Shown piece by piece: positions 26,736 to 56,141 of a DNA stretch of 64,000 bases; positions within the stretch are counted from its first letter, which is position 1, and every line of letters starts with the position of its first letter. Source of the stretch: Cephalotus follicularis (Eukaryota > Streptophyta > Magnoliopsida > Oxalidales > Cephalotaceae); the NCBI GenBank assembly GCA_001972305.1, contig BDDD01000057.1, positions 357,854 through 421,853 of the forward strand. Direction: 5' to 3'. Below the pieces are notes generated by a model. The model saw only the letters and a program-made list of their open reading frames with translations, ran no database searches and had not been told where the DNA came from. The translations under genes and the position numbers were made by a program.

Positions 26736-27518
26736 TGTGACGACCCGAATTCTCTTTTGTACTGTTCATGCATACATCGTACCGTATTGTACCGTATTGG
26801 ACCATACTAAACTATATTGAATTGAGGTATTCTTATACCTATTGATATTGTATTGATCACATGCATGTATAGTCGGGATTTTGGGCGGAGTTTCAGAGTG
26901 TTGACCGAATTGACTATTTAAGTCAATTCCTTGTCATTTCTCTCATTCTTATCATTCATCCTCCTCTCTCTATCCTTCTCCCTCTCTCTCTATCTAAGCA
27001 GCCTCCATCTTCCACCATTGCAACCCCGGATTACATCTCCATCGACAAGGACAACAATTGCAAGTAGTGGATTGGTGATTGAACGGCATAGCAGTGGTTT
27101 GAGTGATTGAAAGCTCGACTTTTTAAGCTTCAGTGAGAGGTAGGACTTCTTACTTGAATTGCCTGCCTCCTGTATTGATTGAATGATTGATTGTATTGAC
27201 TGAATGACTGATTGAATGATTGAATTGAGTGAATTGGGATTTTTAGGGTTTATAGCAAACCCTTAACCTAATTGTTGATTAAAGGATTGAAATTGAATTT
27301 GGAAGGTTGTAACTAGTCTTACTAACCTCAAATGATTGATTGTAAACTTTGGTTTTCAAAGTATGGCTTTAAATTGGATTTTGACTTGAGATTGGCCCAA
27401 TTTTCTGCAAAAAAATCGACTCTGCCCTGAAAAGATATCGACCCTTAGCCCAAAGACGTCGATGTCTTTCTCATCATAGCGTTGTATCTTTGATTCTGCG
27501 GCAAAGACATCGACGTCT
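26736..27518 (+). repeat. Tekay 5' LTR, truncated
   Basis: Aligns base by base with 30,125-30,913. The match stops at GACATCGACGTCT inside the palindrome array. It includes the CT-rich 26,940-27,000 stretch and the start of the GACRTCGAYGTC array. Confidence 0.9.
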
Positions 27519-27551
27519 CATCATAGCCGATCTTATTGTTGAGATTGATGA

Positions 27552-30072
27552 TTGTTGAGATTGATGAATAAGTACCCTCTGCCGCACATTGATGAGCTAT
27601 TCGATCAGCTTAGAGGAGCGACAGTGTTTTCTAAGCTCGACTTGAGATCGGGCTACCACCGGTTGAAAGTCAGACCGGAGGATATTCTGAAGACGGCTTT
27701 AAGATTGAGATATGGCCATTATGAGTTCTTAGTTATGCCTTTTGGTGTGACTAATACTCCTGCGGCTTTCATGGACCTGATGAACCGAGTGTTCAGACAG
27801 TATTTGGTTCAGTTCATTGTAGTGTTCATTGATGACCTCTTAGTCTATTCCAGGACCGACGAGGAGCATGCCAAGCACCTCTACATTGTATTGCAAACTT
27901 TGAGGGATCATCGACTGTATGCCAAATTCGACAAGTGCGAGTTTTGGCTATCGAAGGCTGCTTTCTAGGGCATATTGTTTCTGGTGATGGTTTATCAGTG
28001 GATCCATCGAAAGTAGAGGCAGTGAAAGATTGGAAACGATTGACGAATGCTTCTGAAGTTCGCAGCTTCTTGGGTTTAGCAGGGTATTATCGTCAGTTTG
28101 TTGAGAGATTTTCTCGTATTGCAACACCGTTGACCAAATTGACACAGAAGAACGCTGCCTTTGTATGGGATAGTGATTCTGAAAGAAGTTTTCAAGAGTT
28201 GAAAGACAGATTGATTTCTGCTCCTGTCCTAGCCTTTCCAGACGGGAACGAAGACTTTATTGTATACACCGATGCTTCTGGGAAGGGGTTTGGTTGTGTT
28301 CTTATGCAATACGGCAAAGTGATTGCATATGCATCGAGAAAGATCAAACCACATGAAGAAAACTATCCAGTGCATGACTTGGAATTGGCGGCCATTGTCA
28401 TTGATCTTGGAAAATGGCGCCACTTCCTTTATGGGACCAAGTTCACAGTTTTCACTGATCATAAGAGTTTGAGATATCTCTTTTCACAGAAGGAATTGAA
28501 CATGAGATAGAGAAGGTGGTTTGAGCTTCTTAATGATTATGATTGTGATATTGAAAATCATCCTGGAAAATCCAATGTCGTTGCAGATGCATTGAGTCGC
28601 AAGCTATCTTGTATGACTCTTTCCCATATACAGGTGCAACCTGCATTGCTTGACCGGATTAGAGATGCACAGATAGTGGATATTGAATTACAGAAAGTGG
28701 CTACTGCTATAGATGAACGATTGAAACCCGATTTCTCTCAATCTACAGATGGGTTATTTTGATACAAGAACAGAATTTGCATTCCAGCCGATAACGAGTT
28801 GAAGGAAGAGCTTCTTTCTCAAGCTCATAAATCTCGTCTCTCTGTTCATCCAGGGAGTACAAAGATGTATCGTGACCTAAAACTTAGCTATTGGTGGACT
28901 GGCATGAAGAGAGAAATCGCAGAGTTTGTATCGAGATGCCTCACTTATCAGCAAGTTAAGGGAGAGCACCAGAGACCGGCGGGCTTGCTTCAGCCATTAC
29001 TCATTCTTGAGTGGAAATGGGAGCACATTACTATGGATTTCGTGTCTGGGTTGCCTCTGACTCGTGACAGACATGATGGTATATGGGTTGTGGTCGATCG
29101 ACTCACGAAGTAGGCCCACTTTCTACCGATTCGGATGACTTATTCTAGAGAAAAGTTGTCCAAATTGTTCATGAAAGAGATTGTTAAAGCACATGGAGCT
29201 CCTGTCAGCATTGTTTCAGATCGAGACTCTCGCTTCACTTCCGGGTTTTGGAGGAAGTTACAGGTAGCTATGGGTACAAAATTGAGTTTCAGCACTGCTT
29301 TTCATCCATAAACGGATGGTTTGTCTGAAAGGACCATTCAGACATTGAAGGACATGCTTCGAGCATGCGTTCTCAACTTTGGAGGTAGTTGGGATGACTA
29401 CTTGCATTTGATTGAGTTCTCGTATAACAATAGTTATCACGAGAACATACATATGGCTCCCAGTAAAGCCCTATATGGTAGGAAGTGTTGATCGCCAGTT
29501 TGTTGGGATCAGGTCAATGAAAAGAGTATTTTGGGGCCAGAGATTGTACAGATTACCGCAGAGAAAGTGAAATTGATTAGAGACCAATTGATTGTTGCAC
29601 AGAGTAGACAGAAAAGCTATGCTGATGTTCATCGTAGAGGCTTGGAGTTTAGTGTTGGTGACCATGTTTTCCTCAAGGTATCGCCCACTAAAGGAGTCTT
29701 GAGATTCGGGAAGAAAGGAAAGATTTCTCCTCGTTTTATTGGACCTTTGAGGTATTGGATCGGATTGGCCGACTTGCTTACAGGCTTGCCTTGCCTCCAA
29801 TATTGTCGGGAGTGCATGATGTGTTCCAAGTTTCTCAGTTGAGGAGATATGTTCGAGATCCTTCACACATCATTGAGCATGGTCAGATTCAGTTGGAACC
29901 TGACTTATCGTTTACAGAGACTCCTATACAGATTATTGACCGACAGATCAGAGTATTGAGAAACAAGACTATCCCTTTGGTCAGTGTTCTATGGCAGTAT
30001 CATGGTTCTATGGAGCGCACCTGGGAGTGTGAGGACGATATGAGAGGGACATATCCTTTCCTTTTTGATTGA
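27552..30072 (+). pseudogene. Chromovirus pol: RT, RNase H, integrase, chromodomain
   Basis: RT is truncated at the N-terminus: [31 protein letters not shown] and the catalytic FIDDLLVYS. RNase H follows ([36 protein letters not shown]), then integrase with zinc residues (HPGSTKMYRDLKLSYWW, CLTYQQVK), core HITMDFVSGLP, IVSDRDSRFTS and the [12 protein letters not shown] glutamate block. The GPF-like region and chromodomain end at 30,072. Interruptions: a frameshift near 27,960; stops near 28,509, 28,760, 29,113, 29,310 and 29,490, at least three of them explicable as C-to-T; a frameshift near 29,755. RT, RNase H and integrase would act in cDNA synthesis and insertion. Confidence 0.92.
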
Positions 30073-30107
30073 TTGATCATTGACCGATGAATCTGGGGAC
30101 CAGATTC

Positions 30108-30124
30108 TTTTAAGGAGGGGAGAA
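30108..30124 (+). other. Tekay polypurine tract
   Basis: TTTTAAGGAGGGGAGAA directly precedes the 3' LTR (TGTGATGACCC at 30,125). Confidence 0.85.
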
Positions 30125-32540
30125 TGTGATGACCCGAATTCCCTTTTGTACTGTTCATGCATACATCGTACCGTATTATACCATATTGGACCGTACTGAA
30201 CTGTATTGAATTGAGATATTCTTATACCTATTGATATTGTATTGATCACATGCATGTATAGTCAGGATTTTGGGCAGAGTTTCGGAGTGTTGACCGAATC
30301 GACTATTTAAGTCAATTCCTTGTCATTTCTCTCATTCTCACCATTCATCCTCCTCTCTCTATACTTCTCCCTCTCTATCTATCTGAGCAGCCTCTATCTT
30401 CCACCATTGCAGCCCCGGATTGCATCTCCATCGACAAGGACAGCGATTGCAAGTAGTGGATTGGTGATTGAACGACATAGCAGCGGTTTGAGTGATTGGA
30501 AGCTTGACTTTTGAAGCTTCAGTGAGACGTAGGACTTCTTACTTGAATTGCCTACCTCCTGTATTGATTGAATGATTTATTGTATTGACTGAATGACTGA
30601 TTGAATGATTGAATTGAGTGAATTGGGGTTTTTAGGGTTTATAGCAAACCCTTGACCTAATTGTTGATTAAAGGATTGAAATTGAATTTGGAAGGTTGTA
30701 ACTAGTCTTACTAACCTCAAATGATTGATTGTAAACTTTGGTTTTCAAAGAATGGCTTTAAATTGGATTTTGACTTGAGATTGGCCCTATTTTCTACAAA
30801 AAATCAACTCTGCCTGGAAAAGACATCGACCCTTAGCCCAAAGACGTCGATGTCTTTCTCATCAGAGCGTTGTATCTTTGATTCTGCGGTAAAGACATCG
30901 ACGTCTTTCAAAGACATCAACGTCTTTGCCTCGAGATGTCTCTCCCCTGCAAAGACATCGATGCCGAACATCGATGTGTATTCTCAGGCTATTTTTATTG
31001 AAAAGCGTCGACGCCTTTCTCCAAGGACATCGACGTCTTTGGCCAGATCTCTACACAAATAGGAAAGACATCGATGTCTTTCAAAGACATCGACGTCTTT
31101 CCACCGTTTTAAAGAGGAGTCGATGTCTTTCACCAAAGACATCGACGCCTAATGTACTGAAAGGAGTTTTTAACTGTTTTAAAGCCGGTTTTCAACTTCT
31201 TTTCACATTGCTAGAGCCTCACTTGAGGTGTTCAAGTGTTTGAAAATAGTTTTAATGATTGTACTGATCGATTGATTGCTTGAGTCATGAGTGTTGTTGT
31301 GAGTCTAAGTCGGTAAAATGGACGCACGTTTCCATCCCTTCATTAGGCACCACCACTTATCGGCCTTGCTTCGACGTTGTATTGATACATTGATCGATTG
31401 CTTGAGTCGTCAGTGTTGTTGTGAGTCTAAGTCGGTACTATGGACGCACGTTCCCATTTCTCCATTAGACACCACCACTTATTGACTTTACTTAATGTTG
31501 TATTGACTCGATTGAATGATTGATTGTATTGTATGAATCCTATAAAGCGACCTTGTTGTTTACGTTGGCATGTGAGGTTGACTTTATCCACCTATTCCGT
31601 CGATCGTTTCTTTTATTGTATTGTCTTGCTGACGAGCATGTGCTGACGAGCACGATTGATTGACGATTGACGCTCGCTGAGGGCCGTAGCTCCCTAACAG
31701 AATCAGTAGCTCTCTCATCTGTAGCTCATCGAGATTGTATTAGCCCAGCCATAGGCTGGAAGATCTATGCATTCCATACCTGATCAGTCTGAGAACCGTA
31801 GGTAGATCTCCCACCCTTTTTGAAGGACTACCTTCCGTGGGATTGATCACTGCTAACTGATTGACATTGAATTGACACCGGTCGCACGCTCTATAGGATA
31901 TTGATTGATTGATTGGGTGTTTCATACACCGCCACTGAGTGTCTGTCATTGATTGATTGTTATAGATCCTATCCGTGTGCTCTGTTATGGGCCACTATCA
32001 TACGGGTAGTCTGATCGCCAATTGTACATGTACATTTGCCATGTCATGCATTGATATTGTACACCGCACATTGATATTGTATAGATTGTCACCGATATTG
32101 CACATTGTACATGCATACATGCTGCATGGGGTTTCTGCTTAGCCAGTGTGGCTAACCCCATCCTTCGGGGTGGGGCTGTGTTGTACCTTTGTATGCGGCG
32201 TAGGTAGGGCAGCAAGTAGCAGTGGACAGAAGGACTGAACACCCGTTGACCGCACGACTTCTTGGGTATCGCGAAGCTGATAGAGCTATTGTAGTGAAAG
32301 ATGGAAATGTATTGCATTGTAATGTTGTTTTGAAGGATTGATGATGTATTGAAAAGACTAGTATTGTAAAGGATTTGTGTTGTATTGTATGGTTGGATTT
32401 GTATTGTATCTTCCGCAACTGATATGTATTGCAAAGTTTTAAAGTTTTTCACATTTTTATATTGCTAGTCCTGACCATTGTATTATGTATTGGATTGAGA
32501 GTAATGCCGCGTGTCCGCCCTACAGGCGCGGGGTCTTACA
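30125..32540 (+). repeat. Tekay 3' LTR, complete
   Basis: 2,416 bp, TG...CA. The palindrome array at 30,820-31,150 has about 15 copies of GACATCGACGTC-type units, several as tandem pairs joined by TTTCAAA. Two related 110-bp segments containing tcggtaNNatggacgcacg lie at 31,300-31,500. The remainder is non-coding; frames inside it are not genes. Confidence 0.9.
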
Positions 32541-39849: not shown

Positions 39850-40440
39850 TCCCAAGTGTGGCGAGCATGACTTGTCCAAGCGTGCCAAGCATGACTTGCT
39901 CATGCGTGCTGAGCATGACTTGCTCAAAGCGTGCCGAGCATGATTTGTTCATGCATGCCAAGCATGATTAATTCCATGCATGCCGAGAAGACCAACCCAC
40001 ATGGTCGCCAAGCACACTAGTCCCATGCATGCCAAGCAGACCAGCCCACATGGTCGCCGAGCATGACTAGTTCATGCATGCCGAGCAGACCTGTCCATAA
40101 GCTCGTCGAGCACACTAGTCCTATGCATACAGAGTAGACCAGCCCACATGGTCGTCGAGCATGACTAGTTCATGCATGCCTAGCAGACCTGTCCATAAGG
40201 TCGTCGAGCACACAAGTCATGCATCCTGAGCAACTAATGCTCCTAAACAGATCAGAGTTCTAGAGCAATCAGCGCTCTAATACGAACCAGCTCACGCATG
40301 CCGAGCAAACCAGTCCATATGGTCACCGAGCACATTCGTCCTATGCGTGCCGAGCTGACCAGTCCTTAAAGGCGCAAGGAAGACTAGCGCCTAATGGTAC
40401 AACGCCCTTAAAGAGTCGAGCATACCACCTTCTATGCCTG
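39850..40440. repeat. CATGCCGAGCA array in LTR E
   Basis: About 16 degenerate units of 22-35 bp containing GC(A/G)TGCCGAGCA with either TGACTTG/TGACTAG or GACCAGCC. It is in the equivalent position to the CCATGGCCGAGC array of LTR B. Confidence 0.85.
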
Positions 40441-40479
40441 TTAAGAGAACACACATAGAATTATTAGTGAGACATCCTA

Positions 40480-40815
40480 TAGCAGGTGAACTTTAGTAGC
40501 AAATTCTGCATAGTGACTGTCCCTTAGCTGGTAAGCCCAAATGGGGTGAATATCGTTAGAACAGGTGAACTCAAAAGTGAATTCCGCTAAGAGCAGGTGA
40601 ACCTAAGGGTGAATTCCGCTAAGAGCAGGTGAACCTAAGGGTGAATTCCGCATGACAGGTGAACCTCGGGTGAATCCCGCTTAATAGGTAAACCTAAGAG
40701 TGAATTCCGCCAGAACAGGTGAACCTAAGGGTGAATTCCGTCATAGCAGGTGAACCTAAGGGTGAATTCGGCATGGCAGGTGAACCTAAAGGTGAATTCC
40801 GCATGGCAGGTGAAC
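40480..40815. repeat. AGGTGAACCTAAGGGTGAATTCCGC array in LTR E
   Basis: Roughly nine or ten 25-30-bp units (AGGTGAACCTAAGGGTGAAT then TCCGC). The unit contains the near-palindromes AGGTGAACCT and GAATTC. It matches the array at 5,110-5,345. Confidence 0.9.
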
Positions 40816-42259
40816 CTTACATAAAATTCAGACCAACCACTATATTTATTGAAGTTAGAACTAGTGGTCTGCCCATAGTATAGAGAAACTGAGATGAATG
40901 ATGGTTCAATGTGGATTATCTTATGGCATGTACGCATTCCTCTATTTATATTTGTATCTCCTCTATTTGTGCATCTCTACGTATAGTAGCCTACACAACT
41001 ATGGGTTGCTGACCCATTCATTGTAATGGGTCAGGTTCAGGTACAGTTGGAGCATCACAGCAACCCAAAGGATAAAGAGCAGTGCAAGTTCCTCTCCTCG
41101 GCAGTGCAGTTCCGAAGACCAGTTCAGCAAGTAAGAAATATGTAAACTTTGATATGTTAATTACCTGTCGGTTTGTGGCAGAGTCATTATGAACAGTATC
41201 ATATATTAATTATAGTATGTTTAGGACTTATTCACATTCTTATCTGGTCTTATATCCGCATATGAGATAATGAATTGAAGTTTTAAATTTTATGGTACTT
41301 AAATAGTGATTAGTTGTACGGTATATCACGTGTTGGGCAGTGGGGCCCATCCCACAGTTCGAGGCGTGACACATACGATCCATCCTATACATAGCATCAT
41401 ACCCCAAATATGCTATAAATTTAAAACTTTAATCCAATTATGCATGCAGAAACAACTATTCCAACTTGCATGGATGAACCCAACATAATTCATAATACAC
41501 CATACATAACTAAAGCACTGCCACAAGCCGGCAGGTCAACGAAAAAAACTAAAAAATAAAATATGTCTCTTATACAATAAGGTAGATAGAGGGAACTGCA
41601 CTACTACAAGATATCATGCTCTACAAACCGTCCCATCTCACATCGAGGCGTCCTCAGCACTCGTCCATAAAATGTTGTGCCCATTTCGAGAATGGGTCAG
41701 CCAACAATGGCTATGTAGGAAATACTATATGCAATGAAGTGAATAGGTATATACAGATATATGCATGGCATGTGAAATGCATGAATGTCAATTGTGGACA
41801 GCGTTGGTATATCAACCGTCCCTAAGCGGTGGCATACTTAACTAGTCCTAATCACAAAAGGAGCATAGGTATGCAGACACTCCATAAGTCAAACCATAAC
41901 CATCAATGGGTCAAACAATCCATAAGGTCTGAGTACCACTCTACCCCCTCCGGCCCAAGATAGTACTGCCACCGACTACATACCCTTTCAGGGTCGTAGC
42001 TGAGTGGGATCGAGATAACGTTGACCACATCATCCATAAGATAAGGCTTGTTCACAATGGTCCCAGCGAACGATATGATAGAGTTTGTTCACAATGGTCC
42101 CAGCCCATTATACGATATTCTCATTGGTCCGCCCACAATGCGATGATCCCAGTAGGTCTACCCTAAAAGTGGGGTTCCGTAACCCCCATATGATGTGGTC
42201 TAACACCCATAACCTTCATGATAGAAATGAAGATTATCAATCGGTTATCTCATCAGGTC

Positions 42260-42643
42260 TCAAACAAACTCCTCAAAACAGAAATGGCAAAGAAGGGCAC
42301 TGGAACTCTCAAACCATGCGAGAGAGCATCTTCAAAAACCACGAAGAGCCCAGGCTTGCTCTTCATAGCCATCTGAGATTTTGGGGAAGATTTAACGTTA
42401 TGCCCCATGAAAGCATTACTTCCTGGCGAGTTCCAGTACACTCTCACGAGAGAGCACACTTATATCAAAATAGCCTTCCGAAGCTTGAGTTCCAGCTTCA
42501 GAGGTGGGAGCAGCAGGGTCTCCCGTCGCAGCCCCCACATTTTCCTCTGAGTCAAGGGGGTGCTCGGCAACAGACACCACCATTGCCAAGGAAGCAACTT
42601 CCTCGGGAGTAGGAGATATGCGGGTTTGTTTGGTTCTAGCCAT
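42260..42643 (-). pseudogene. Antisense accessory protein with H3-like N-terminus, truncated copy
   Basis: The start codon at 42,643 gives MARTKQTRISPTPEEVASLA, then a spacer and SVLSRESVLELARK, where a stop interrupts at about 42,415. A second frame continues with KSKPGLFVVFEDALSHGLRV and PVPFFAISVLRSLF. These blocks align with SVLNRERVKELAKK, SRPGLFRYF and the LEHGLRLPLPSFAIEV stretch of the larger copy at 46,532, so it is the same family. The conserved blocks belong to the Pfam 'putative gypsy type transposon' (Transposase_28) family. It is truncated at the junction near 42,255. The first seven residues equal the start of histone H3. Confidence 0.75.
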
Positions 42644-43287: not shown

Positions 43288-43897
43288 TGATGAGGGAAAA
43301 AATCTATCGATATTCAGCACGCCACGTGTCATCTGCAGCCACTGCCACTTGTGCAAAGGATTCAAAATCTGAGTGGATAGTAGTCAGAGGAAACTCCTCA
43401 GCGCCAAATAAGGAAAAAAACGAGATCCTCGGCTATTTTCCAGAGGACATCATCCCCCATAATGGAATAAGGCCGCAAAATCAGCCTATATTCCAGGGAT
43501 CCACCTCCTCAGGATCAGCAAGCAGGGAGCCAAATCCGGTGGAGAATCAGGGAAATCCCGAGATCCTCAGCATTTCCTTAGGGGAACGCAAACTACTTCC
43601 GAAAATTGAGCAAAGGCAGTTACAAACAATCCCTATAAATACCAGAATCAAAGACTTTACACAGGTCCGTCATTTTTACATACACTAAAGCACCCTTTGA
43701 TTGTTTTTCTCTGCCTTGTCTAACTTAAGCATCGGAGTGTCCCCAGGAGAAAACCCTCATGGGCCTGCGATCAGTTAACCTTCTTTGTCCAGGGAAAGCA
43801 ACCAAACAACATTCTCGGAGCATATCAAAGCATTTCTCTCAACAAATCAAAGTCATACACCTGGGATACTGTTGAGTGGAGGATTTCTGTATCAACA
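43288..43897 (+). repeat. Tat copy 2 3' LTR
   Basis: 610 bp, TGATGAGGG...TGTATCAACA. Its ends resemble the reverse complement of the larger element's LTRs (TGATATGGG...GACATCAACA). It includes a CCACGTGTCATCTGC block and a CCTATAAATACC TATA box near 43,630. Confidence 0.8.
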
Positions 43898-45552: not shown

Positions 45553-46003
45553 TGTTGATGTCGAAATCAACTTATCAATAGGACCCTATGTGTAGGGTTT
45601 TGATTTGTAGAGGAAACGTTGTGTATGCTCCGAGGAAACTGACCGAAGAACCAGGAGATTTCACACCCGGGGACTCTCCGACGCTTAAGTCAGGCAGTGA
45701 ACAAATAAGACAGTAAGGTGCTTTAAGTGTATAAAAATGGCGGACCTGTGCAATGTATTCGATTGATGTATTTATAGTAGAGCTTGTTGTAACTGTCTTG
45801 CTTGACTTACAGAGATGATTATTGTACCCCTAAGGAAATGCCGAGTATCTCGGCATTTCCCTGATTTGGCACCGGAGCGTTATTGTGGGTTATCTTCTCA
45901 AATTATAAATGCCCGATCACGTGTCTGTAGCTCTGGATAACACTTGTATTGTTTTCCCAAGGACAAATGGCGATATTTTTTGTGCAAGATTTTTCCCATA
46001 TCG
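45553..46003 (-). repeat. Tat 3' LTR
   Basis: 451 bp. It aligns with 55,655-56,141 except for scattered substitutions and a 36-bp segment (near 55,735-55,770) absent here. On the minus strand its first two bases are CG instead of TG. Confidence 0.92.
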
Positions 46004-46028
46004 TATGCCCTCCGGGTCTTTTTTTTCT
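46004..46028 (-). other. Tat polypurine tract
   Basis: The minus strand reads AAAAAAAAGACCCGGAGGG before the 3' LTR, purine-rich as required for plus-strand priming. Confidence 0.7.
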
Positions 46029-46290
46029 TGGCTTGGCAGGGAAGGAAGACCATTTGCGGCCTGGCTTGATACTGAGCAGGGCTTTAATATGTTTTCAGAA
46101 CCTAATTTGGCTATTGGGCCTACATCTCTTAGCCCAACTTTGATATTAACTTTAAGAAGGTCAAACGTCCATAACGCTAGCATCTTTTCATTTGCTACGC
46201 GATACCTCTTCGTTTTTAGCGCATGACTTGAAGGGTTGATCTCAACCGTTTAACCCTGCCGAGATCTAACGGTCTGGAAATAAGCCTTAG

Positions 46291-46304
46291 CCCTTTAAAA
46301 AGGT
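46291..46304 (+). promoter_or_regulatory. TATA-like box of the antisense gene
   Basis: CCCTTTAAAAAGGT lies 228-241 bp before the ATG at 46,532, followed by a CT-rich leader. A homologous box at the same distance is seen in copy 2 (42,861-42,874). Confidence 0.5.
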
Positions 46305-46531
46305 ACTACCTTCTCAGAGAAGTTTCTTTACGCTTCCTTGAATCTCCAAAGCTTTTGCTTCTTCTAGCTTCTCAATATTCCCAGATTACCTTCCGATCTT
46401 CCTTCAAGTCTTCATTGTAAAAATCTCTGGTGATGACCTTTTTCGGCTTAGATCGCTTTTTAGAAATCATCTGATCATTCTTAGGGTTTTTCTGGATTTT
46501 TTTATCCTCCCTTTCTCTCTAACAATTTTGA

Positions 46532-48907
46532 ATGGCTAGGACCAAGCAAACCTCCAGACGAGATAACGATCCAGACGTGGCTAGTCGCTTGGCGGGTGAA
46601 GTGACTATAGCCGACCGTCCTGTTGGTGCTGAGGTGGAGATGGATGCTGCCGCAGTGGGTACTCCCGGAAACACCTCTACTGAAGTGGGGGCCCAAGTGT
46701 TTAGGGCCGATTTCAACAGGAGCGTGCTCAACCGAGAGAGAGTGAAGGAGTTGGCTAAGAAGTACTCCTTTCCGAGTGGCCTGGAATACGGCCTACCCGG
46801 TGATCCCAAAGAGGTGACCGAGAGCAGACCTGGGCTTTTCCGGTATTTTTGGACGCACTGGAGCATGGTCTGAGGCTCCCTCTTCCATCTTTCGCTATTG
46901 AGGTTATGGGGCACTTCAAGATCCATCCCTTACTGTTCTAACCGCAATCTTGGGCCTTCATCATAGGGTTTTTGGTGAAGTGTCTGGAATCCGAGGCGGT
47001 TGCTACAGTCGAGCTCTTCAAGGAGTTCCATATTTTGGAGGTCTCTCCTGGAAAGCGCGAGTACTACTTCAAGTCCCGTCCTGGGCTGACCAAGAAGCTT
47101 CTGGTAGAGCCTACTAAGTCCATCAAGGGTTGGAGAGGGAGGTACTTTCTCATCAGGAACCTCCCTGATTTCATGTCTTTTCAGTGGTCGAACGCACTGG
47201 ATATTCAACATCTCAACAATCGGTCAGTTCTGACTATGGCCGAAAGGGCCGACCTGGAAAAACTCTCTGCTCTAGAGCCCGAGGGGGTGAATCATATCAT
47301 CTGGGAGGACCGCCTTCACCGGGTTGGGATTAGCATGTCCTTGGGCCGACGACATCTCTTGGATGACGAGGAAGAAATTCCAATCGGGGTAGAGAGAGAG
47401 AGGGGTGATAATATCCGAGATAAACCCGAGGCTCGGCCCGTGGCTGAGGAAGAAAGTCATATAAAGCCTTCGTCTCCTCCAAATTTAACTTCTGTTTTTC
47501 CTTTCATTTCTTTATTATTTTTTGCTTTATTATTTATTCTATGGTTCTTTGCAGCAATGGGTCATCGGCGCAATGTAACTAGCATCCTGATGGTCAGTAA
47601 GGAGAGGAGAAAGCAAGTTACAGTTAGGGAGCAAAGCAGAAAGAAAAAGCTGCTGAGGCCGAGTGAGGCTCTGTCACTGCTGCTGCTGCCAAGAAAACCG
47701 ACAAGGGTAAGCGACCTATAAAATAACGTCCCCCTACTACTCTTCCCATCCCTCCGAGCAAGAAAAGCAAAGGGGGGAAAGAGGCCAAGAACTCCTCTCT
47801 TGGCCCAGAGAGCGCTCCTCCTAGCGCGAGCCCTTAGGATCACATTCAATTGTCCGCTCCTTGGAATGTTGACAGGATGATTGACGAGCTGGAGGCCTTG
47901 GGTAGTTCTAGTTTGAACTTGAACACTCCTAGGGTTCCTCTTGAGCTTAGCCGACTGTACTTCCTCCCGTCCGAGCTTCAAGCAAGGAAGGGTTGAACCC
48001 ATGAGATACTGATAAACCACTACATTTGGAGCAACATTAGGGTAAGTGATTTCTTCTGTCCCTTACCGTACATAATACTTGTTTTTCCTCTAACACTCGT
48101 CTTTCTCTGACAGGCTCTGAATGATACTCAGCTGATGGTGGAAAACTTCAACACCACTATTGAGAAGAATGACCAGCTGAGAGGAGAGGTAGCGGAGCTC
48201 AAGGAGACCACCGAATCGGCCAAAACTCGGTTGGAAGAAGTTCTCAGAGCCCAAGAGTCCGTCGTTGAGGAGAAGAAGGAGGCTGTTGAGGCTTTGGTGA
48301 AGGAGAGGACAGAGAAGAAGCAAGTGGAAAAGAAGCTCGTGCGGCTCAGTGAGTAGTACCTGCGCTGCATCAGAAATTCGAGGGTTATCAGAGCATAGAT
48401 GAAGCTCGGACGAAGCAGGCAGTGGACAAGGCCCTGGTGGAATTAAAGTCCTCGGACGAATTCCATACTCTGATGGAAGCCTCCGTGGAGGACTACAAAT
48501 CTTCTTCAGCTTTTGGCGATAAAGTTCTCAAGGAATCCGCCGAGTACTTCTGTCGAGGCTTTTATGCTTGCCGGAACTGGATTTCATCTCTTCATCCAGA
48601 GGTTCCTTCGCATGGCATTGTTTACTGCCCGACTACGGATACTTTCAACTTCTATCCTGAGGGCATCGAGGTAGAGGAAGAGAAAGTTGAGCTTGCCTTG
48701 GAAGAAGAAGCTCGTCCTGCTCGGGAAGAAGATGAGGTATAGAGAACCAGGTATCCAGATCTGGTTATCCTACCCTCGGATCCTACTGTGGACTCTTCTT
48801 CTTTGCCACCTTCTTCAGAGCTTGTAGCTCATCAGCCTCCAGCCTCTGAACCCTTCGCTACTCCTTTTCCAGAGGATGATCCTGAGCCCTCTCCCCCGGA
48901 GTCTTAG
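46532..48907 (+). pseudogene. Antisense accessory gene of the Tat element, protein with histone H3-like N-terminus
   Basis: The ATG at 46,532 gives MARTKQTSRRDNDPD; residues 2-7 and R8 equal the H3 tail, and position 9 is R instead of K. Next come SVLNRERVKELAKK and SRPGLFRYF, a 1-nt frameshift near 46,851, then LEHGLRLPLPSFAIEV, ELFKEFHILEVSP, REYYFKSRPGL and KGWRGRYFLIRNLPDF (the 'putative gypsy type transposon' Transposase_28 family). A K-rich linker (47,590-47,800) precedes a coiled coil at 48,135-48,356 and an acidic tail ending in SPPES at 48,907. Probable introns are about 47,456-47,554 and a clear GT...AG at 48,041-48,113. Stops at 46,939, 48,354 and 48,740 fit C-to-T changes. Function unknown. 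Confidence 0.8.
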
Positions 48908-48975
48908 TTTTGTAGCTTTGCCTTTTCTTTTGCATTGTAACTTTTGCTTTGTAACTTGTAATTTCTAATCTGGTA

Positions 48976-48983
48976 ATAATAAA
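48976..48983 (+). terminator. Polyadenylation signal of the antisense gene
   Basis: AATAAAAA about 70 bp after the stop codon, preceded by TTGTAACTTGTAATTTC-type U-rich elements, as in plant 3' ends. Confidence 0.55.
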
Positions 48984-48999
48984 AAGAGCTTTCAACATC

Positions 49000-50050
49000 A
49001 TTGTGTCTTTTCTTTCTGAACTTCTTTGCTCTTGTATGCTTGAGCTCTATTCGAGCTTACAATTCCCTTAGGATAATTTAATGTAAGTAATAGAACTTGA
49101 TTTATGCTTCATTTGAGCATTATAATTCCCCTTAGGAATTATTAGTTTAGTCTAACTTATAGACTTCATGTATTATTGTCTTACAGTTTTCAGACTCGGT
49201 TACCTAAGCTTTCTAGCCCTCTTAGGACACTTTGTATCAAAAGCGCTTAGGCAAAAAGACTCAATCTTCACGAGCTCTTAAGTGTTCGTAGATCAAGTTT
49301 TAGGTCTGCTCGGACAAGTTCTGACGGGTTTACCGAGCAGGATCCAGTCTGGTCGGACTTTTTCCGATCAGGTCGTATGAGCTTGCAGTCCTCGTAGGGA
49401 CACTTGTTTCAAAGTGCTCAGTCCAACGAACTTGATCGTTGCGAGTTCTTATGGATTCGCCTATCAAGACACGATACTAGTTTGGTCGGACAAGTTCTTA
49501 TAGAGCTGCCGACCAGCGTTTGCTACCTTGGGAGTGTTATTTCTTCCTTAGAAGTCTTTTAGCATTGCTCCTTTGGGAGTCTTATTGCTTCCTTAGAAGT
49601 CTTTTAGCATTGCTCCCTTGGGAGTCTTTCGCGCTCCTTGGAAGGAGTCTTTATTGATTTGAGACATCAGTCTATTCAAGACTTTATCCTGTATTTGTTT
49701 ACTCCCTTAGAAGTCTTACATCTTTGTGAGACTTAGAGAGCTCGTGTCCTATATCAAGACCTGCTATGATTGCTCCCTTGGGAGCGTGGTCGGACGAGCT
49801 TGTATTAAAGCTTCTTGACTGAGGGAACTAAACGGCGGCTGTTCAGAGGTTTAAGGACTTGAACATTGGGCCTCCAGTCCCTTGTAAACTTGGAACTATA
49901 ATCTTGAACATGCTTTTTAAGTCAAAAATTGAGCTTTTATTGACATTCTTGTATTTGTACAAACTTACAATAGTCATTGATAGTATTTTCTCAGATGCTC
50001 GGCATTCCAAACTCTAGGAATCGCCCTGTCCCCAGAGTTTCAAGTTTGAA
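49000..50050 (-). repeat. Tat 3' untranslated region with short tandem repeat
   Basis: Non-coding between integrase and the antisense gene. At 49,525-49,640 a unit of about 55 bp (TTGGGAGTCTTATT, TCCTTAGAAGTCTTTTAGCA) is repeated two and a half times. Other GAGCT/GGTCGGACAAG blocks recur at 49,300-49,520. Retand elements are known to carry amplified tandem repeats in this position. Confidence 0.7.
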
Positions 50051-50053
50051 TGT

Positions 50054-51100
50054 TCATGGTCGGATCATTCTTTTCACCTTATAGGTTCCTTCCCAATTCG
50101 GGGTTAGCTTTCCTCTGGTACTGGTCGGATCTGTTATTACCGCATTGCGGAGGACTAGATCTCCTTCCCTTAGTGGTCGGGGATTTACCCTTTTGTTGTA
50201 ATAGCGACTCACTCTTTGTTGGTAAGCTGCTACTTTGATGGATGTTTTATCTCTGAGCTCTTCCACTAGGTCTAGGAGACTTCTCAATCCTTCCTCATTA
50301 TTTTCCTCACTGGAATGCACGACTCTTGGTGACTGCACTCTAATTTCTACCGGTATCATGGCTTCTGCTCCAAAACAAAGGTTGAATGGGGACTCACCAG
50401 TTATGGTTCGAGGAGTGGTTCTATAAGCCCATCAAACACTTAGCAGCTCCTCTGTCCATCTTCCCTTGCTCTTCAAGGTGCTTATTTAACCCTGAGATGA
50501 TCTCCCTGTTACTCACCTCGGTTTGGCCATTGTTCTGGGGGTAGGCTACTGAGGTAAGCCTATGCTCAATTCTCCATTCTTTGCAAAAGTCACAGAATGC
50601 TTGGCAATCAAACTGCTTCCCATTATCCAAGACTATTATCCTCGGGACTCCGAATCTACAAATGATTAATTTCCAGACAAAGCTCTCCGTGTTCTTCTCT
50701 GTTATTGTGGCTAGAGGCTCAACTTCTACCCATTTGGTAAAGTAATCCACTGCCTCAATGAGGTACTTCCTCTGCCCAGTTGCTGCTGGAAGTGGTCCGA
50801 CGAAGTCCATCCCCCATTGTGCAAATGGCCAAGGGGCAGTGATAGACGCCAGGGGCTCGGATGGTCTTCTTCTTATATTAGCATTCCTCTGACACTTATC
50901 ACACTTTCTTACAAAGTTGATGGCATCCTGATGCATGGTGGGCCAGAAATAGCCCTACCTTAACAATTTGTTAGACAAGGTTCTGCTCCCCGTGTGATTG
51001 TAACATACTCCTTCATGAACTTCCCTCAAAGCATTATCGGCCTTTGAGGGGGTCAAACATCTCAGCCAATGAAAAGAAAATGACCTCTTGTAGAGGATCT
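50054..51100 (-). pseudogene. Tat integrase
   Basis: The zinc region at 51,030-50,880 is LREVHEGVCYNHTGSRTLSN, then a stop (LLRxGYFW), then NFVRKCDKCQRNAN. The core has FAQWGMDFVGPLP, RIIVLDNGKQFD and NNGQTEVSNREI, so all three DDE residues are present. A frameshift near 50,420 separates the C-terminal part (50,359-50,054: YYNKRVNPRPLREGDLVLR and LTPNWEGTYKVKR). It would insert the cDNA. Confidence 0.92.
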
Positions 51101-51287
51101 CATCTCAAAATTGGTATCTGTTTGCTCTGTACACCAACCTTCTTGCCTCTTCGGGGTCCTCTGGAAAAATTCTATATCTTAGACAATTGATAAATGGAGT
51201 CATCCAGTCTGGCTCCTGTGGTACGTCTATGTCCATCACATCTATCTCTGAAATGGTGGGCCTGTCCATGTAGCCTACTAGCACGGT

Positions 51288-51815
51288 TTAATTTTTCTGT
51301 AACTCTTCCGTTGTAGCTAGTTTTAACAACTGGTCTGCTCGGACGTTCTCTGCTCTGGGTACTTTCAAAACTCTCAACACTTGGAAAGTCGACTTGAGAC
51401 TCTGAATGTGCACTAAGTACTTGGTCATTGAGTCTTCTCGAGCTTCATACTCTCCATTCGGCAGACCAACCACTAGCTGAGAATCACTTGAGGCTTCTAT
51501 CTTTTGAACCTTTAAGTGCTTTGCAATTGTCAGCCCGGCGATCAGAGCTTCCCACTCGGCTTCATTGTTTGTAACTTTGAACCCAAATCTCAGAGTGTAC
51601 TCCAATATCCACCCATCCAAACTGACCAATACCAAACCTGCTCCACTTCCAGAGACATTGGATGAGCCATCTACTGAAAGCTTCCATAACCCCTTCTCAT
51701 CTTCAGAGGTGTCTTCTTCCATACACTCCGTAAGTGTATGGTCTCCTACAAAGGCAGCCAAGACCTGTGATTCTATCTCTGGTCTGGCTTTGTACTTTAC
51801 ATCATACTTGCCCAA
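51288..51815 (-). CDS. Second (archaeal-like) RNase H of the Tat clade
   Basis: An uninterrupted block of about 175 residues. Acidic residues are in order: WKLSVDGSSNVSGSGAGLVL (first D), NNEAEWEALIAG (E), ASSDSQLVVG (D) and NVRADQLLKLAT (D). A second RNase H, distinct from the RT-linked one, placed between RNase H and integrase is known for Tat-lineage elements. It is translated as part of the pol polyprotein, so the ATG at 51,815 is only the frame opening. It ends at TEELQKN with a stop before the integrase. Confidence 0.85.
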   Translation of the reverse strand: MGKYDVKYKARPEIESQVLAAFVGDHTLTECMEEDTSEDEKGLWKLSVDGSSNVSGSGAGLVLVSLDGWILEYTLRFGFKVTNNEAEWEALIAGLTIAKHLKVQKIEASSDSQLVVGLPNGEYEAREDSMTKYLVHIQSLKSTFQVLRVLKVPRAENVRADQLLKLATTEELQKN

Positions 51816-53182
51816 TTCGACCGACTACTTGATCAATCTGCTCGAGACGTCTGACTTTGCTAGCACTTGTCTTAGTGGCTTGTCGGTCAAGACTCTAATG
51901 ATATGGGCTTGAAAGTATGGCCTTAACTTCCTCGCTGCTATAATCAGAGTATAAGCGTATTTCTCTACTTGTGGATACCTACCCTCAGTGTCATTCAAGG
52001 CCTTGCTCATATAGTATACTGGCCTCTGAACTTTCTCATCTTCCCTGACAAGCACTGCACTCACTGCGTCTGATGTTGCCACAAGGTACAAATACAAGTC
52101 TTCCTCATCCTTTGGTTTTGATATCAGATGAGGGAAAGCCGGGTATTCCTTCAACTTGCGAAGGCCGCTTGACAATCTTCCGACCAAGAAAATCCCTTGG
52201 GATCTCTCAGCACTTTGAAAACAGGGAGGCATTTTTTTGTTGATTTTGATACGAACCTGCTCAGGACTGCTATATAGCCATTCAATTTTTGTATGTCCCT
52301 GATAGTCTGAGGAGGCCTCATGCTCTGAATTGCTGAAATTTTCTCTAGGTTGGCCTCTATCCCTCTACTCGAGACCATGAAACCGAGGAACTTACTAGAA
52401 GTGACCCCAAAAGTGCACTTGGAAGGATTGAGCTTCATTTTGTATCTTCTCAGTACCTCAAAAGTTTTCTCCAAGTCTTTAATATGGGGACTCATTGCTG
52501 GTGTTTTGACGAGCATATCGTCAATGTATACCTCCATATTCCTCCCGATCTGAGGCTCAAAAATTTTGTTGACCAATCGTTGGTAGGTCGCCCCTGCATT
52601 CTTCAATCCAAAGGGCATGACTTTGTAGTAATGCATGTCCCTGTCAATGATGAAAGCTTTCTTGTTCTCGTCGAACCCACACATGGGGATTTGATTATAA
52701 CCCCAATATGCATCCAAAAAGCTCAACATCCTGTATCCCGAGGTTTCATCTACCAACTAATCGATCTTCATGAGGGGGAAGTGATCTTTTGGGCAAGCTT
52801 TGTTTAAGTCTATGAAGTCTATACACATCATCCACTTTCCATTAGCCTTCTTGCCTAGGACCGGGTTTGCCAGCCAGTTTGAGTAGAGCACTTCCCTAAT
52901 GAACCCCACTTGTAATAGCTTGCTCACCTCTTCTGCTATAAGCTATTACCTCTCAGGAGCGAAGTTCCTTTTCTTTTGCTTGGTCGGAGGCCTCATAGGA
53001 TCTACGCTTAGCTTATGAACCATCACCTCTGGGCTGATCCCAGGGACCTCCTCTGCTGACCAGACAAACACATCTTTATTGTTTTTTAGGAACGTTATTA
53101 GTTCCTCTTTCTCCACCTCTCCAAGTTGTGAGCCGACTTGGAAAATTTTCTCTGTGTTGCCCTCTTCCAAGGGCACCTGCAC
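51816..53182 (-). pseudogene. Tat reverse transcriptase and RT-linked RNase H
   Basis: Leader VEKEELITFLKNNKDVFVWSAEEVPGI, then the PTKQKKRNFAPER block with a stop. RT continues through ANPVLGKKANGKWMMCIDFIDLNKACPKD, a stop at KIDxLVDE (fits CAG to TAG), FLDAYWGYNQIPM, PFGLKNAGATYQRLVN and the active site VYIDDMLVK, then KLNPSKCTFGV. The connection and RNase H are at 52,232-51,825 (YLVATSDAVSAVLVREDEKVQRPVYYMSK, YPQVEKYAYTLIIAARKL, VLTDKPLRQVL), after a frameshift near 52,200. Confidence 0.92.
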
Positions 53183-53359
53183 AACATCCTTAACAGGTTA
53201 TGGACGCTCGAGCTCCACCTCTCCTCTGAGCTCCACATTAGCTATGGGCAAGGCCTTCTCTTTCCCCTTGTCCATTATGGCAGTTTTGTAACACTGCCTT
53301 GCTACCTGTTGGTCTCCTCGAACTTCCCCCACACCAAACCTTGTTGGGAATTTCATCAC

Positions 53360-54103
53360 TCAGTGCCTTGTTGACACTATTGCTTCCATCAAATTCAATC
53401 CTGGTCGCCCAATTATTGCATTGTATGGGCTTGGTGTATCAACCACCAGGAAGGTCATCTGCACTTGAGTCTGGCGTGGGGCCGTGCCCGCCACTACTGA
53501 TAGGTCAATGAATCCCAGAAGATGGACCATCTCACCTGCAAAGCCTACCAGAGGTGTCTTCACGGGCTTCAACTGGTCGACCGGTATCCTTAACTGATCA
53601 AAGGCATGCTCGTATAGGATATCGGCTGAGCTCCCGCTATCAATAAGGATCCTTTTCATAGTGAATAGTGCCACCTGAAGAGTTACCACCACGGGATCAT
53701 CATGAGGGAGACGTACTCCCTCATAGTTCACCTCGGAGAAGGATATCACCTCCTCATCTCCACCAGTCTTCAACATTTTTCTATGTTGATATTGTTGCAC
53801 AGCAAAGGTTTGCCTTGCATAGGCTTTCCTTGACCTGTTATGATCGCCACCAGACGCGACCCCCCCAGAGATGGTGTGGATGACACCTCTGGGATGCTGC
53901 TCCTCTTGTTGTTGTGGAGTTTGTTCATTACGCTCCTTTCTTTCTTGTGGACCATTCCTGTCAACATACTTACGTAAGTGACCCCTCCGAATCAGGTCCT
54001 CAATCTGATTCTTCAAAAGCTTGCACTCCTCTGTATCGTGTCCGTGATCATGATGGTACAGGCAATATTTATCTGAGTCCCTCTTTTCTGGTGCGAAACT
54101 CAA
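53360..54103 (-). pseudogene. Tat gag C-terminus (zinc knuckle) and protease
   Basis: Opens with DSDKYCLYHHDHGHDTEECKLL, a CCHC-like zinc region, and RRGHLRKYV. After a Q/E/R-rich linker comes VNYEGVRLPHDDPVVV and the protease active site RILIDSGSSADILYEHAF (D-S-G), ending SPYNAIIGRPGLNLMEAIVSTRH. The frame is open for 247 residues. Downstream a short gap with stops precedes RT. Confidence 0.9.
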
Positions 54104-54286
54104 TGGTGTTGGCCCTTGAATTGAGACTTTGTCTTTCTCTACAGCAAGTATCCTGGTGCGTGTCTCCAGGAGTGGGGCAAAATTATTGTAGGTCGGGATT
54201 GGTGCCCCCCTTTTTAGGGATTCCTCCTTCCTGGAAAGCTTGTGTCTCAGGTCATCTTTGGTCAGCTCTGACCTATCCTTTCTCTT

Positions 54287-55600
54287 CTATTTCTTCCCGG
54301 GAGCACTTCGTGAGTGCTCCGCTTTCTCCACCTGTTGGCCCGACCAGGAAGTTTTCTGTTTCCTAGCGGCCATTGCCTCCTTGGCATTGACGTACTTCTC
54401 TGCTCTCCTCAGCAGATCCGCCATGTCCTGAGCAGGCTTCTTCATGAGAGAGAAGGTGAAAGGGGAGTTATCCTTCAACCCACTATTCAGAGCAGCCATG
54501 GGGAATGATGGCTTCATGTCTTTCACTGTCAGGGACTCCTTGTTAAATCTGGTAAGGTAGTCTCTCAGGGACTCATCCTTCCCCTGCACCACGTTGATTA
54601 AATGACTTGAATTCCTCCTTTGCGTGGTGTTGTTGAGGAACTTGATAACGAACAGTTCCGTAAACTGCTCAAAATTCATCACTGAATCCACTGGCAGGGT
54701 TGAATACCACGACTGGGCTACTCCAGTCAATGTTGTTGGGAATCCTCGGTAAAGAACCTCATTCGAGGCTTGGTGCACTAGCATGACTTGTGTGTAGTAG
54801 CCCACATGATAAATAGGGTCCATAGACCCATCATACTACTTGAGACTCGGAAACCAAAATCCCCTTGGGATACGTTCCTTCATTATCTCATGTGTGAAAG
54901 GAGTGGAGTTGATATTTATTACCTCGGACAAGTACCCTTTTCCCTGCTCGGCTCCGTTGATCCTTTTCTCCATCTCAGCAAGCCTTTTGTTCATGGCTTG
55001 CTCTACATCCTTAATATTCCTAGTCTTGCTAGAAACTTGGGATGTGCCCGTTGCTAGTCGAACCTAGTGGTCTGACCTGCTCCCGCGCAATGTTTCAGTC
55101 CTGCGCGAAGTGTTGGAACGCGCTCGGGTCTCCTCGACATCTACCTGGTGATCCACTTCCATTGGTTGCTGCTCGGGATACTCTAGACGAGAATTGTTGC
55201 TGTGATCTCTGGAGTTTAAGTACTCTGCCCTTAGATATTTATTGATATCTGGTCTCCTCCTCAGAGGTATATCAACATTTGACCGCCTCAGGGGGCGCAT
55301 GCCCCTCCTAGGCGGGTTTCACCTTGCCCCTCGGGACTGTTGGACCTCCAAAGCTGCTCTACTCGGACCCGATTGCTCTTGGATAATTGGTCAGCTCGAT
55401 CCAACCTGATTCTGGTTGGCTAGATTGATTCCCAACAAGGTGGTAAGACCCCCCACTTCCTGGAGCAGCTGATTGAATTGCTCCCCAGTAATGGGAGCTT
55501 GCTCAACCGCAGAAACTTGACCGATAGCAGGTGGTTGATTTCTAGTAGGAGCCTGGCTGCCGTCGACCTCGGAATTGTTGTTGTTTCTTCTCAGAGGCAT
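54287..55600 (-). pseudogene. Tat gag
   Basis: The probable start is ATG at 55,600 (MPLRRNNNNSEV), 55 bp downstream of the LTR. The N-terminal part stops at 55,391. A middle segment (55,300-55,064) is rich in R/S/N. The conserved Retrotrans_gag domain is at 54,823-54,287: MLVHQASNEVLYRGFPTTLTGVAQSWY, FVIKFLNNTTQRR, KDESLRDYLTRFNKE and AEKYVNAKEAMAARK. At least three interruptions. Gag would form the particle. Confidence 0.85.
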
Positions 55601-55635
55601 GATTAGATGATCGCTTGAAAGCTTTTTGAAGGGCT

Positions 55636-55654
55636 TCCCATAGACAGCGCCAAC
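55636..55654 (-). other. Tat primer-binding site
   Basis: The minus strand reads GTTGGCGCTGTCTATGGGA immediately after the 5' LTR. TTGGCGCxGTCT(A/G)TGGG is the usual sequence here in Tat-clade elements; I do not assign the tRNA. Confidence 0.7.
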
Positions 55655-56141
55655 TGTTGATGTCAAAATCAATTCCTCAACAGTACCCCATGTGTAAGGC
55701 TTTGATTTGTAGAGGAAACATTGTGTATGCTCCGAGAATGAGTGTTTAATCGTCTTCCTTGCACACAAATAATAAACTGACCGAAGAACCAGGAGGTTTC
55801 ACTCCCAGGGACTCTCCGATGCTTAAGTCAGGCAGTGAACAAAGAAGACAGTAAGGTGCTTTAAGTGTATAAAAATGGAGGACTTGTGCAATGTATTCTA
55901 TTGTTGTATTTATAGTAGAGTTTGTTGTAATTGCCTTACTTGACTTACGGAGATGATTATTGTACCCCTAAGGAAATACCGGGTATCTCGTCATTTCCCT
56001 GATTTGGCGCCGGAGCGTTATTGTGCGTTCTCTTCTCATATTATAAACGCTCGATCACGTGTCTGTAGCTCTGGATAACACTTGTCTTGTTTTTCCTTTG
56101 ACACATGATGGTATTTTTTGTGTAAGATTTTTCCCATATCA
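55655..56141 (-). repeat. Tat 5' LTR
   Basis: 487 bp; on the minus strand TGATATGGG...GACATCAACA. TATAAATAC-type boxes around 55,905-55,915 and a GGCGCCGGAGCG block are shared with the 3' copy. It is followed by gttgg (56,142-56,146). Confidence 0.92.

Follow-up and report, generated by a model that had tools for sequence, protein, structure and literature searches.

Introduction

Retand elements carry open reading frames of the TRP28 type (PF04195) in antisense orientation, between pol and the 3' LTR (PMC11963269, PMC7264820). According to the accessible text of PMC11963269, the region between pol and the 3' LTR in Retand elements measures 2.9–6.6 kb, TRP28 is predicted to bind DNA, and 97% of the clusters of Retand elements with recent activity have antisense open reading frames (aORFs) of this type. 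For Grande, the aORF protein is described as localizing to the nucleus (PMC7264820). The N-terminus of histone H3, in turn, is read and copied by several proteins. The VRT motifs of PAF15 and DPPA3, as well as the ART of H3, all bind the PHD finger of UHRF1 (PMC11187062), and SNAG domains mimic the H3 tail in LSD1 (PMC5896174). In plants, unmethylated H3K4 is read by SHH1 and by ZMP, a PHD protein, both of which have links to Pol IV (PMC7617993). Among proteins encoded by transposable elements, VANC binds tandem-repeat regions and removes silent marks (PMC10398659).

Here, we analyzed a stretch of 64,000 nucleotides from the genome of Cephalotus follicularis (contig BDDD01000057.1; hereafter, the window), in which an aORF of this kind starts with a near copy of the H3 N-terminus, and we followed this N-terminal tip through related aORFs of the same genome.

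Results

The host element and its antisense ORF

The window contains a Ty3/gypsy LTR retrotransposon of about 10.6 kb, spanning positions 45553–56141, with the 5-bp target-site duplication GTTGG on both sides. Its two LTRs could be aligned in two parts, with identities of 88% and 91%, and the Pfam matches on the minus strand follow the order gag, reverse transcriptase, RNase H and integrase, with a second RNase H-like domain before the integrase:

45553–46003, minus strand: 3' LTR, adjoining the target-site duplication GTTGG
50057–50954, minus strand: integrase and the open frame continuing it (PF17921 and PF00665 within 50424–50954)
51291–51824, minus strand: second RNase H-like domain (PF13456, RVT_3)
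51831–52364, minus strand: RNase H adjoining the reverse transcriptase (PF17917)
52154–52756, minus strand: reverse transcriptase (PF00078)
54290–54835, minus strand: gag piece (PF03732)
55655–56141, minus strand: 5' LTR, adjoining the target-site duplication GTTGG

The stretch between pol and the 3' LTR, from 50057 to 46003, is about 4.05 kb long and holds a plus-strand ORF that starts at 46532, inside the element and antisense to gag and pol, between the integrase and the 3' LTR. The element is Retand/Tat-like, a placement based on this anatomy together with the antisense ORF. Other elements were also noted in the window. Two directly repeated copies of a sequence of at least 518 bp, 95% identical, lie at 27001–27518 and 30390–30906 (the scan started at 27001), with weak reverse transcriptase and integrase matches of 27–29% identity between them, at 27597–27977 and 28886–29236; judged from these sequences, 27001–30906 is probably an LTR element as well, and a younger one. 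On the minus strand, from 4547 to 3720, a further Ty3/gypsy element is represented by integrase-like matches with 35% and 25% identity to the integrase parts of the main element.

The ORF at 46532 runs to 46873 on the plus strand, encodes 113 amino acids and starts with MARTKQTSRRDNDPDVASRL. The N-terminus of histone H3 reads ARTKQTARK. The first-pass annotation, which was made from the letters of the window, had described the start as MARTKQTSRR and had listed the residues that match or differ from H3; this is indeed what the ORF encodes, as A1, R2, T3, K4, Q5, T6 and R8 of H3 are identical, A7 is replaced by S and K9 by R. The aORF can be followed further downstream on the same strand, in pieces:

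46532–46558, plus strand: H3-like tip, ATG and codons 2–9, MARTKQTSR (H3 A1–R8 with A7 replaced by S)
46532–46873, plus strand: initial 113-amino-acid piece of the aORF, ended by a frameshift near 46840
46837–47481, plus strand: continuation of the aORF in another frame, with a stop at 46939; TRP28-domain region, located by tblastn with the L018 and L169 proteins
48042–48113, plus strand: probable aORF intron, GTAAGT ... CAG, proposed from sequence alone
48111–48353, plus strand: probable downstream exon, 81 amino acids open, with many charged residues

Because the frame shifts near 46840 and then meets a stop at 46939, this copy is dead. The ORF at 46532 is best explained as the start of a decayed TRP28-type antisense accessory gene of a Retand/Tat-like retrotransposon. 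The likeness to Transposase_28 that had been suggested for the protein stands for its relatives and not for the broken window copy itself: hmmscan at E values up to 0.1 gave no Transposase_28 match for the window pieces, while PF04195 was found, over its cut-off, in both intact relatives that were tested (L018 and L169, with E values of 9.5e-13 and 3e-7). The window pieces are 75–80% identical to L018 and 46–54% identical to L169. The coiled coil that had also been proposed was not supported by a simple heptad test, as 48111–48353 scores no better than shuffled sequences, 527 of 1000 of which were as good. No PDB entry was found to match the first 22 residues, and an AlphaFold2 model of residues 1–269 of L169, built with 7 sequences, had a mean pLDDT of 42, which is too poor for fold comparison.

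Families of aORFs that share the tip

A search of the 1.58-Gb assembly that contains the window for relatives of the window copy (the first family) produced 10,348 first-look candidates, of which 150 were scored, the window copy among them. Exactly MARTKQT is read in 75 of the 150, a figure that should be considered together with the fact that the ranking of the matches measured similarity to a query containing the tip, so that the sample leans towards it; a few rows with equal scores on small contigs may, moreover, be assembly duplicates. Met is found at position 1 in 138 copies (92%). When the frame was fixed slightly differently, and with Met counted as residue 1, T4 was kept in 139, K5 in 143, T7 in 137 and R9 in 131 of the 150 copies, and the equivalents of H3 K4, T3 and T6 are all among the 30 best-kept of 106 positions. 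The loosest position of the tip is Q6, corresponding to H3 Q5, with Q in 105, R in 24 and K in 11 copies. The tip is then mostly followed by SR or AR; eight of the 75 exact copies read MARTKQTAR and one reads MARTKQTARK. This last copy, L146, thus starts with the first ten residues of H3.

A second family was obtained not through the tip but through the PF04195 domain, which lies about 100 residues downstream of it. This search gave 150 scored loci of 9,886 candidates, with matches in none of the 14 control genomes. Forty of the 150 loci were examined, half of them (20) in full and the other 20 as short stretches; long open frames were one reason for picking them. Of the 20 full loci, nine belong to the second family, and in these the tip reads MARTKQT six times, MPRTKQT once and MTRTKQT once and is garbled in one locus (L164). 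In 20 further second-family places, MARTKQT was found 14 times and MERTKQT, MVRTKQT and MARIKQT once each, with three places unreadable. Overall, the exact MARTKQT is present in 20 of 29 second-family places, and is mostly followed by KR or RR. One second-family member, L169, is 48–53% identical to six first-family copies. Another one, seen at L168/L191 on contig C2581, has an open aORF of 594 amino acids that includes a segment with many A, E and R residues, as well as a basic cluster, KRPR, at residue 495 that could be a nuclear signal.

The tip is not a feature of all loci with this domain. In 11 other PF04195 loci (L151–L161), it was absent from the three frames of the 900 nt upstream; L156, L158 and L159 start with M[AS]S..TS, and the remaining ones are too decayed to be read. 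By their sequences, other TRP28 groups therefore seem to be without the tip.

When the whole genome was searched with a degenerate DNA pattern for MARTKQT, 2,551 matches were found, as compared with 2 for the reversed control. H3 genes and aORFs were told apart in the first 24 of these 2,551 places. Four were copies already assigned to the first or second family, and the other 20 all appeared by eye to be aORF-like N-termini of several families, some of them frameshifted, with none looking like H3. Among the 24 places, MARTKQT was encoded in 16 different ways. As the pattern fixes MARTKQT, only the residues that follow the tip are informative here, and of these R9 was kept in 18 of the 20 N-termini, with positions 8 and 10 varying. 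Four of the 20 places belong to a third family, MARTKQT[SAT]R.SP.L[ED]..., and a protein search with one of its members gave 150 scored matches of 5,989 candidates.

The window itself holds a second and independent aORF, on the other strand from the first:

42422–42643, minus strand: start of the second aORF, MARTKQTRISPTPEEVASLAMVV..., which shares 43% identity with the first ORF over 76 columns
42268–42369, minus strand: fragment of its TRP28 region in another frame, VVFEDALSHGLRVPVPFF..., matching residues 95–128 of L169
43535–43876, plus strand: LTR remnant, inverted relative to the LTR of the first element and 74–76% identical to it

This second aORF, which begins at 42643 with MARTKQTRISPTPEEVASL..., is 55–63% identical to third-family pieces and also starts with MARTKQT, although R9 (R8 of H3) is not kept. 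Its TRP28-region fragment at 42268–42369 is below Pfam detection. The LTR remnant at 43535–43876 likely belongs to the same element as this aORF, and tandem repeats were noted beside it, at about 39863–40817. The aORFs at 46532 and 42643 are thus diverged from each other and yet both begin with the tip, within a single window.

All of the relatives that bear the tip come from one genome. In IMG/VR and GTDB genomes, 4, 47 and 55 stretches fit a peptide pattern, and none was confirmed as a relative. It had been proposed that random N-termini among homologues would reveal the H3 match as chance; instead, MARTKQTxR is kept in three diverged families of this genome.

Selection on the tip

Codons of the first and second families were compared in an alignment without gaps of 150 first-family and 8 second-family copies, one of which has a one-codon insertion near residue 69. 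Between the families, codons 2–7 rank best of 101 six-codon windows, with 85% amino acid identity, and 65% of the codon comparisons over these six codons are synonymous changes. Over codons 10–23, the amino acid identity between families is 16%. Rates were calculated with 7 second-family copies and with those 85 of the first family in which Met is the first residue and 106 codons are open. For codons 2–7, pN between families is 0.059, with synonymous sites being saturated; for codon 8 together with codons 10–23, it is 0.612, and dN/dS for codons 10–106 is 0.27. When 100 six-codon windows were scanned with 40 of the 85 copies, codons 2–7 presented the lowest pN (0.062, as compared with a median of 0.38). 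The same trend is seen within the first family, where a comparison of 8 diverged copies with 66 others gave a pN of 0.060, versus 0.243 for codons 10–60.

The pattern that is kept, ARTKQTxR, corresponds to H3 residues 1–6 and 8. Since the tip is kept across families despite saturated synonymous sites, and neighboring codons change, these codon comparisons indicate that the tip is under protein-level selection on ARTKQTxR. Constraint at the nucleotide level, such as a splice or antisense element, was also considered as the main cause and was ruled out, as the codons differ freely, with the 16 codings in 24 places.

The start codon and the position of the tip

The first-pass annotation had named a true start codon elsewhere as one way in which the match could prove to be chance. 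For the window's own family, the start is supported, whereas for the second family it is less certain. For 149 of the 150 first-family copies, any in-frame ATG within the 376–400 nt upstream is separated from the start ATG by a stop in the same frame. A pyrimidine tract ending in AG is found no more than 30 nt before the ATG in 130 of the 150 copies, and 9 nt before it in 112, and GTGAG-like donors are seen about 100 nt upstream in many of the 24 copies that were inspected by eye. An intron in the 5'UTR of the first-family aORFs is thus likely, judging by these signals. With this stop present in all but one of the 150 copies, the tip should be free at the N-terminus in the window's family, a position that is well supported by the sequences.

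In the second family, 7 of 9 full loci have an in-frame upstream ATG, giving M[TS][TS]SSSSSSLSGN[LP]-MARTKQT. The same upstream codon is in frame in L184 and L190, and the other short second-family stretches end just before it; in L164 and L169, the upstream ATG is out of frame. A donor-like sequence, [AC]AG|GTGAGC, is present upstream of the tip in all eight second-family copies that were inspected; in four of them, no AG that might act as an acceptor lies close to the ATG. The second-family tip may, therefore, be internal, unless an intron in the 5'UTR is spliced out.

Discussion

What the tip might do

The reading that we prefer is that the tip of a TRP28-type aORF protein mimics the H3 tail and occupies a host pocket for the unmodified H3 N-terminus, for which, on the sequence evidence given above, we see close to an even chance. 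The first Met is ordinarily removed before an N-terminus of this kind. Its removal would leave ARTKQT[S/A/K/R]R, presenting the A1-R2-T3-K4 core that is read by H3K4me0 pockets. The aORF protein would be nuclear and bound to the element's own DNA, and the free tip would fit a host pocket that reads A1-R2-T3-K4me0. The most likely targets would be recruiters of Pol IV and RNA-directed DNA methylation (RdDM), such as ZMP, which has a PHD finger for unmethylated H3K4. SHH1 would be a less likely target, as it also needs K9me, which the tip does not offer; indeed, a PHD-type reader is favored over SHH1 because K9 is absent from the tip, being matched in one copy only. Silencing at the element could then be titrated or redirected, so that the aORF protein would counter silencing locally, much as VANC proteins do. 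A VIM (UHRF1-like) protein was considered as the first target and set aside, since its PHD finger is reported not to recognize the H3K4 peptide; the source is a title cited in PMC7617993, according to which VIM1, a plant homologue of UHRF1, does not recognize this peptide.

The full form of this proposal is that an old and large group of plant retrotransposons encodes an antisense DNA-binding protein with a selected and free copy of the H3 tail, which captures the H3K4me0 readers of Pol IV/RdDM and acts against silencing. With all of its parts taken together, we consider this rather unlikely, and it should be read as a tentative scheme built on sequence comparison. A selected mimic of the H3 tip would nonetheless supply a molecular hypothesis, with named host targets, for at least one group of TRP28 aORFs. 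It should also be considered that antibodies to the H3 N-terminus or to H3K4 might cross-react with the transposon protein.

Other explanations of the tip

A selected tip could instead serve another role of a basic motif, such as nuclear import, contact with nucleic acids, assembly or N-terminal processing, in which case the likeness to H3 would be convergent and not read by H3 readers. We regard this as a real possibility, if a somewhat doubtful one. The motif is indeed basic, Q5 is replaced by R or K in 35 of the 150 first-family copies, and the second-family motif may be internal and thus unfit for a pocket that takes the free H3 N-terminus. A generic basic motif would, however, allow K and R to be exchanged and T to be lost, yet K4 is kept in 143, T3 in 139 and T6 in 137 of 150 copies, and the families still agree in A-R-T-K-Q-T although their synonymous sites are saturated. 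The tip might also act on enzymes rather than on H3K4me0 readers: H3K4 writers (ATX/COMPASS-like) or erasers (LSD1-like LDL proteins) could take it as a substrate or be decoyed by it. R2-T3-K4-Q5-T6 surrounds the substrate lysine, as this explanation would expect, and SNAG domains provide a precedent in which an N-terminal mimic can block LSD1 (PMC5896174); a recruited H3K4 demethylase would, on the other hand, be expected to favor silencing rather than escape, and we find the explanation improbable.

Two further explanations give the likeness no role. As the copies descend from few ancestors, their number alone proves nothing, and a chance match to H3 could have been spread by copying. The match has, however, persisted across families whose synonymous sites are saturated and whose neighboring codons have changed, and this conservation contradicts coincidence, which we consider very improbable; what is left of it is an accidental H3 likeness of a motif that is itself conserved. 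That the 5' end of a host H3 gene was captured is hardly credible, even though retrotransposons are known to capture pieces of host genes (PMC7264820) and one copy reads MARTKQTARK. The window ORF and its relatives have no H3 likeness after residue 9–10, and hmmscan of the window ORF at E values up to 0.1 gave no match to any family, core histones included. A capture of a few codons in the distant past is conceivable.

Comparison with known systems

Returning to the preferred reading of the tip as an H3-tail mimic, the closest described systems should be considered side by side. The window's aORFs resemble the TRP28 aORFs of Retand in their antisense place between pol and the 3' LTR and in the PF04195 domain of two intact relatives. 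The LTR, internal and pol-to-3' LTR lengths of the 45553–56141 element are inside the ranges given in the available part of PMC11963269, and the tandem repeats near the second element of the window are a further likeness. Unlike the window's aORFs, those of Retand are described without mention of an H3-like N-terminus in the available text of PMC11963269 and PMC7264820: a term search of the former found neither histones nor N-termini mentioned, and the passages of the latter on Retand ORF4, Grande GENE23 and RIRE2 do not give one. In the accessible parts of the open-licence literature, no published H3-like tip on TRP28 proteins was found.

PAF15 and DPPA3 likewise copy the H3 tip, by a short A/V-R-T motif with which they compete with H3 for a reader (PMC11187062, as available). 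These are animal host proteins with a shorter match, whereas the plant aORF tip matches 7 of the first 8 residues of H3 and is a candidate ligand. SNAG-domain factors, such as GFI1 and SNAI1, likewise carry an N-terminal mimic of the H3 tail on a DNA-binding protein, as described in PMC5896174. The SNAG target is LSD1, unlike the H3K4me0 readers proposed for the aORF tip. To our knowledge, SNAG sequences do not read ARTKQT and have no homology to aORF proteins.

VANC, of the Arabidopsis VANDAL elements, is likewise an accessory protein of a transposable element that acts on the chromatin of its own element, with tandem repeats in the element (PMC10398659, in its available text). The VANC protein is unrelated to that of the aORF, and anti-silencing is reported for VANC but only proposed for the aORF. 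VANDAL elements are DNA transposons, and we know of no H3-like tip in VANC. Histone mimicry is used by some animal viruses; if the preferred reading is true, plant retrotransposons would use it as well.
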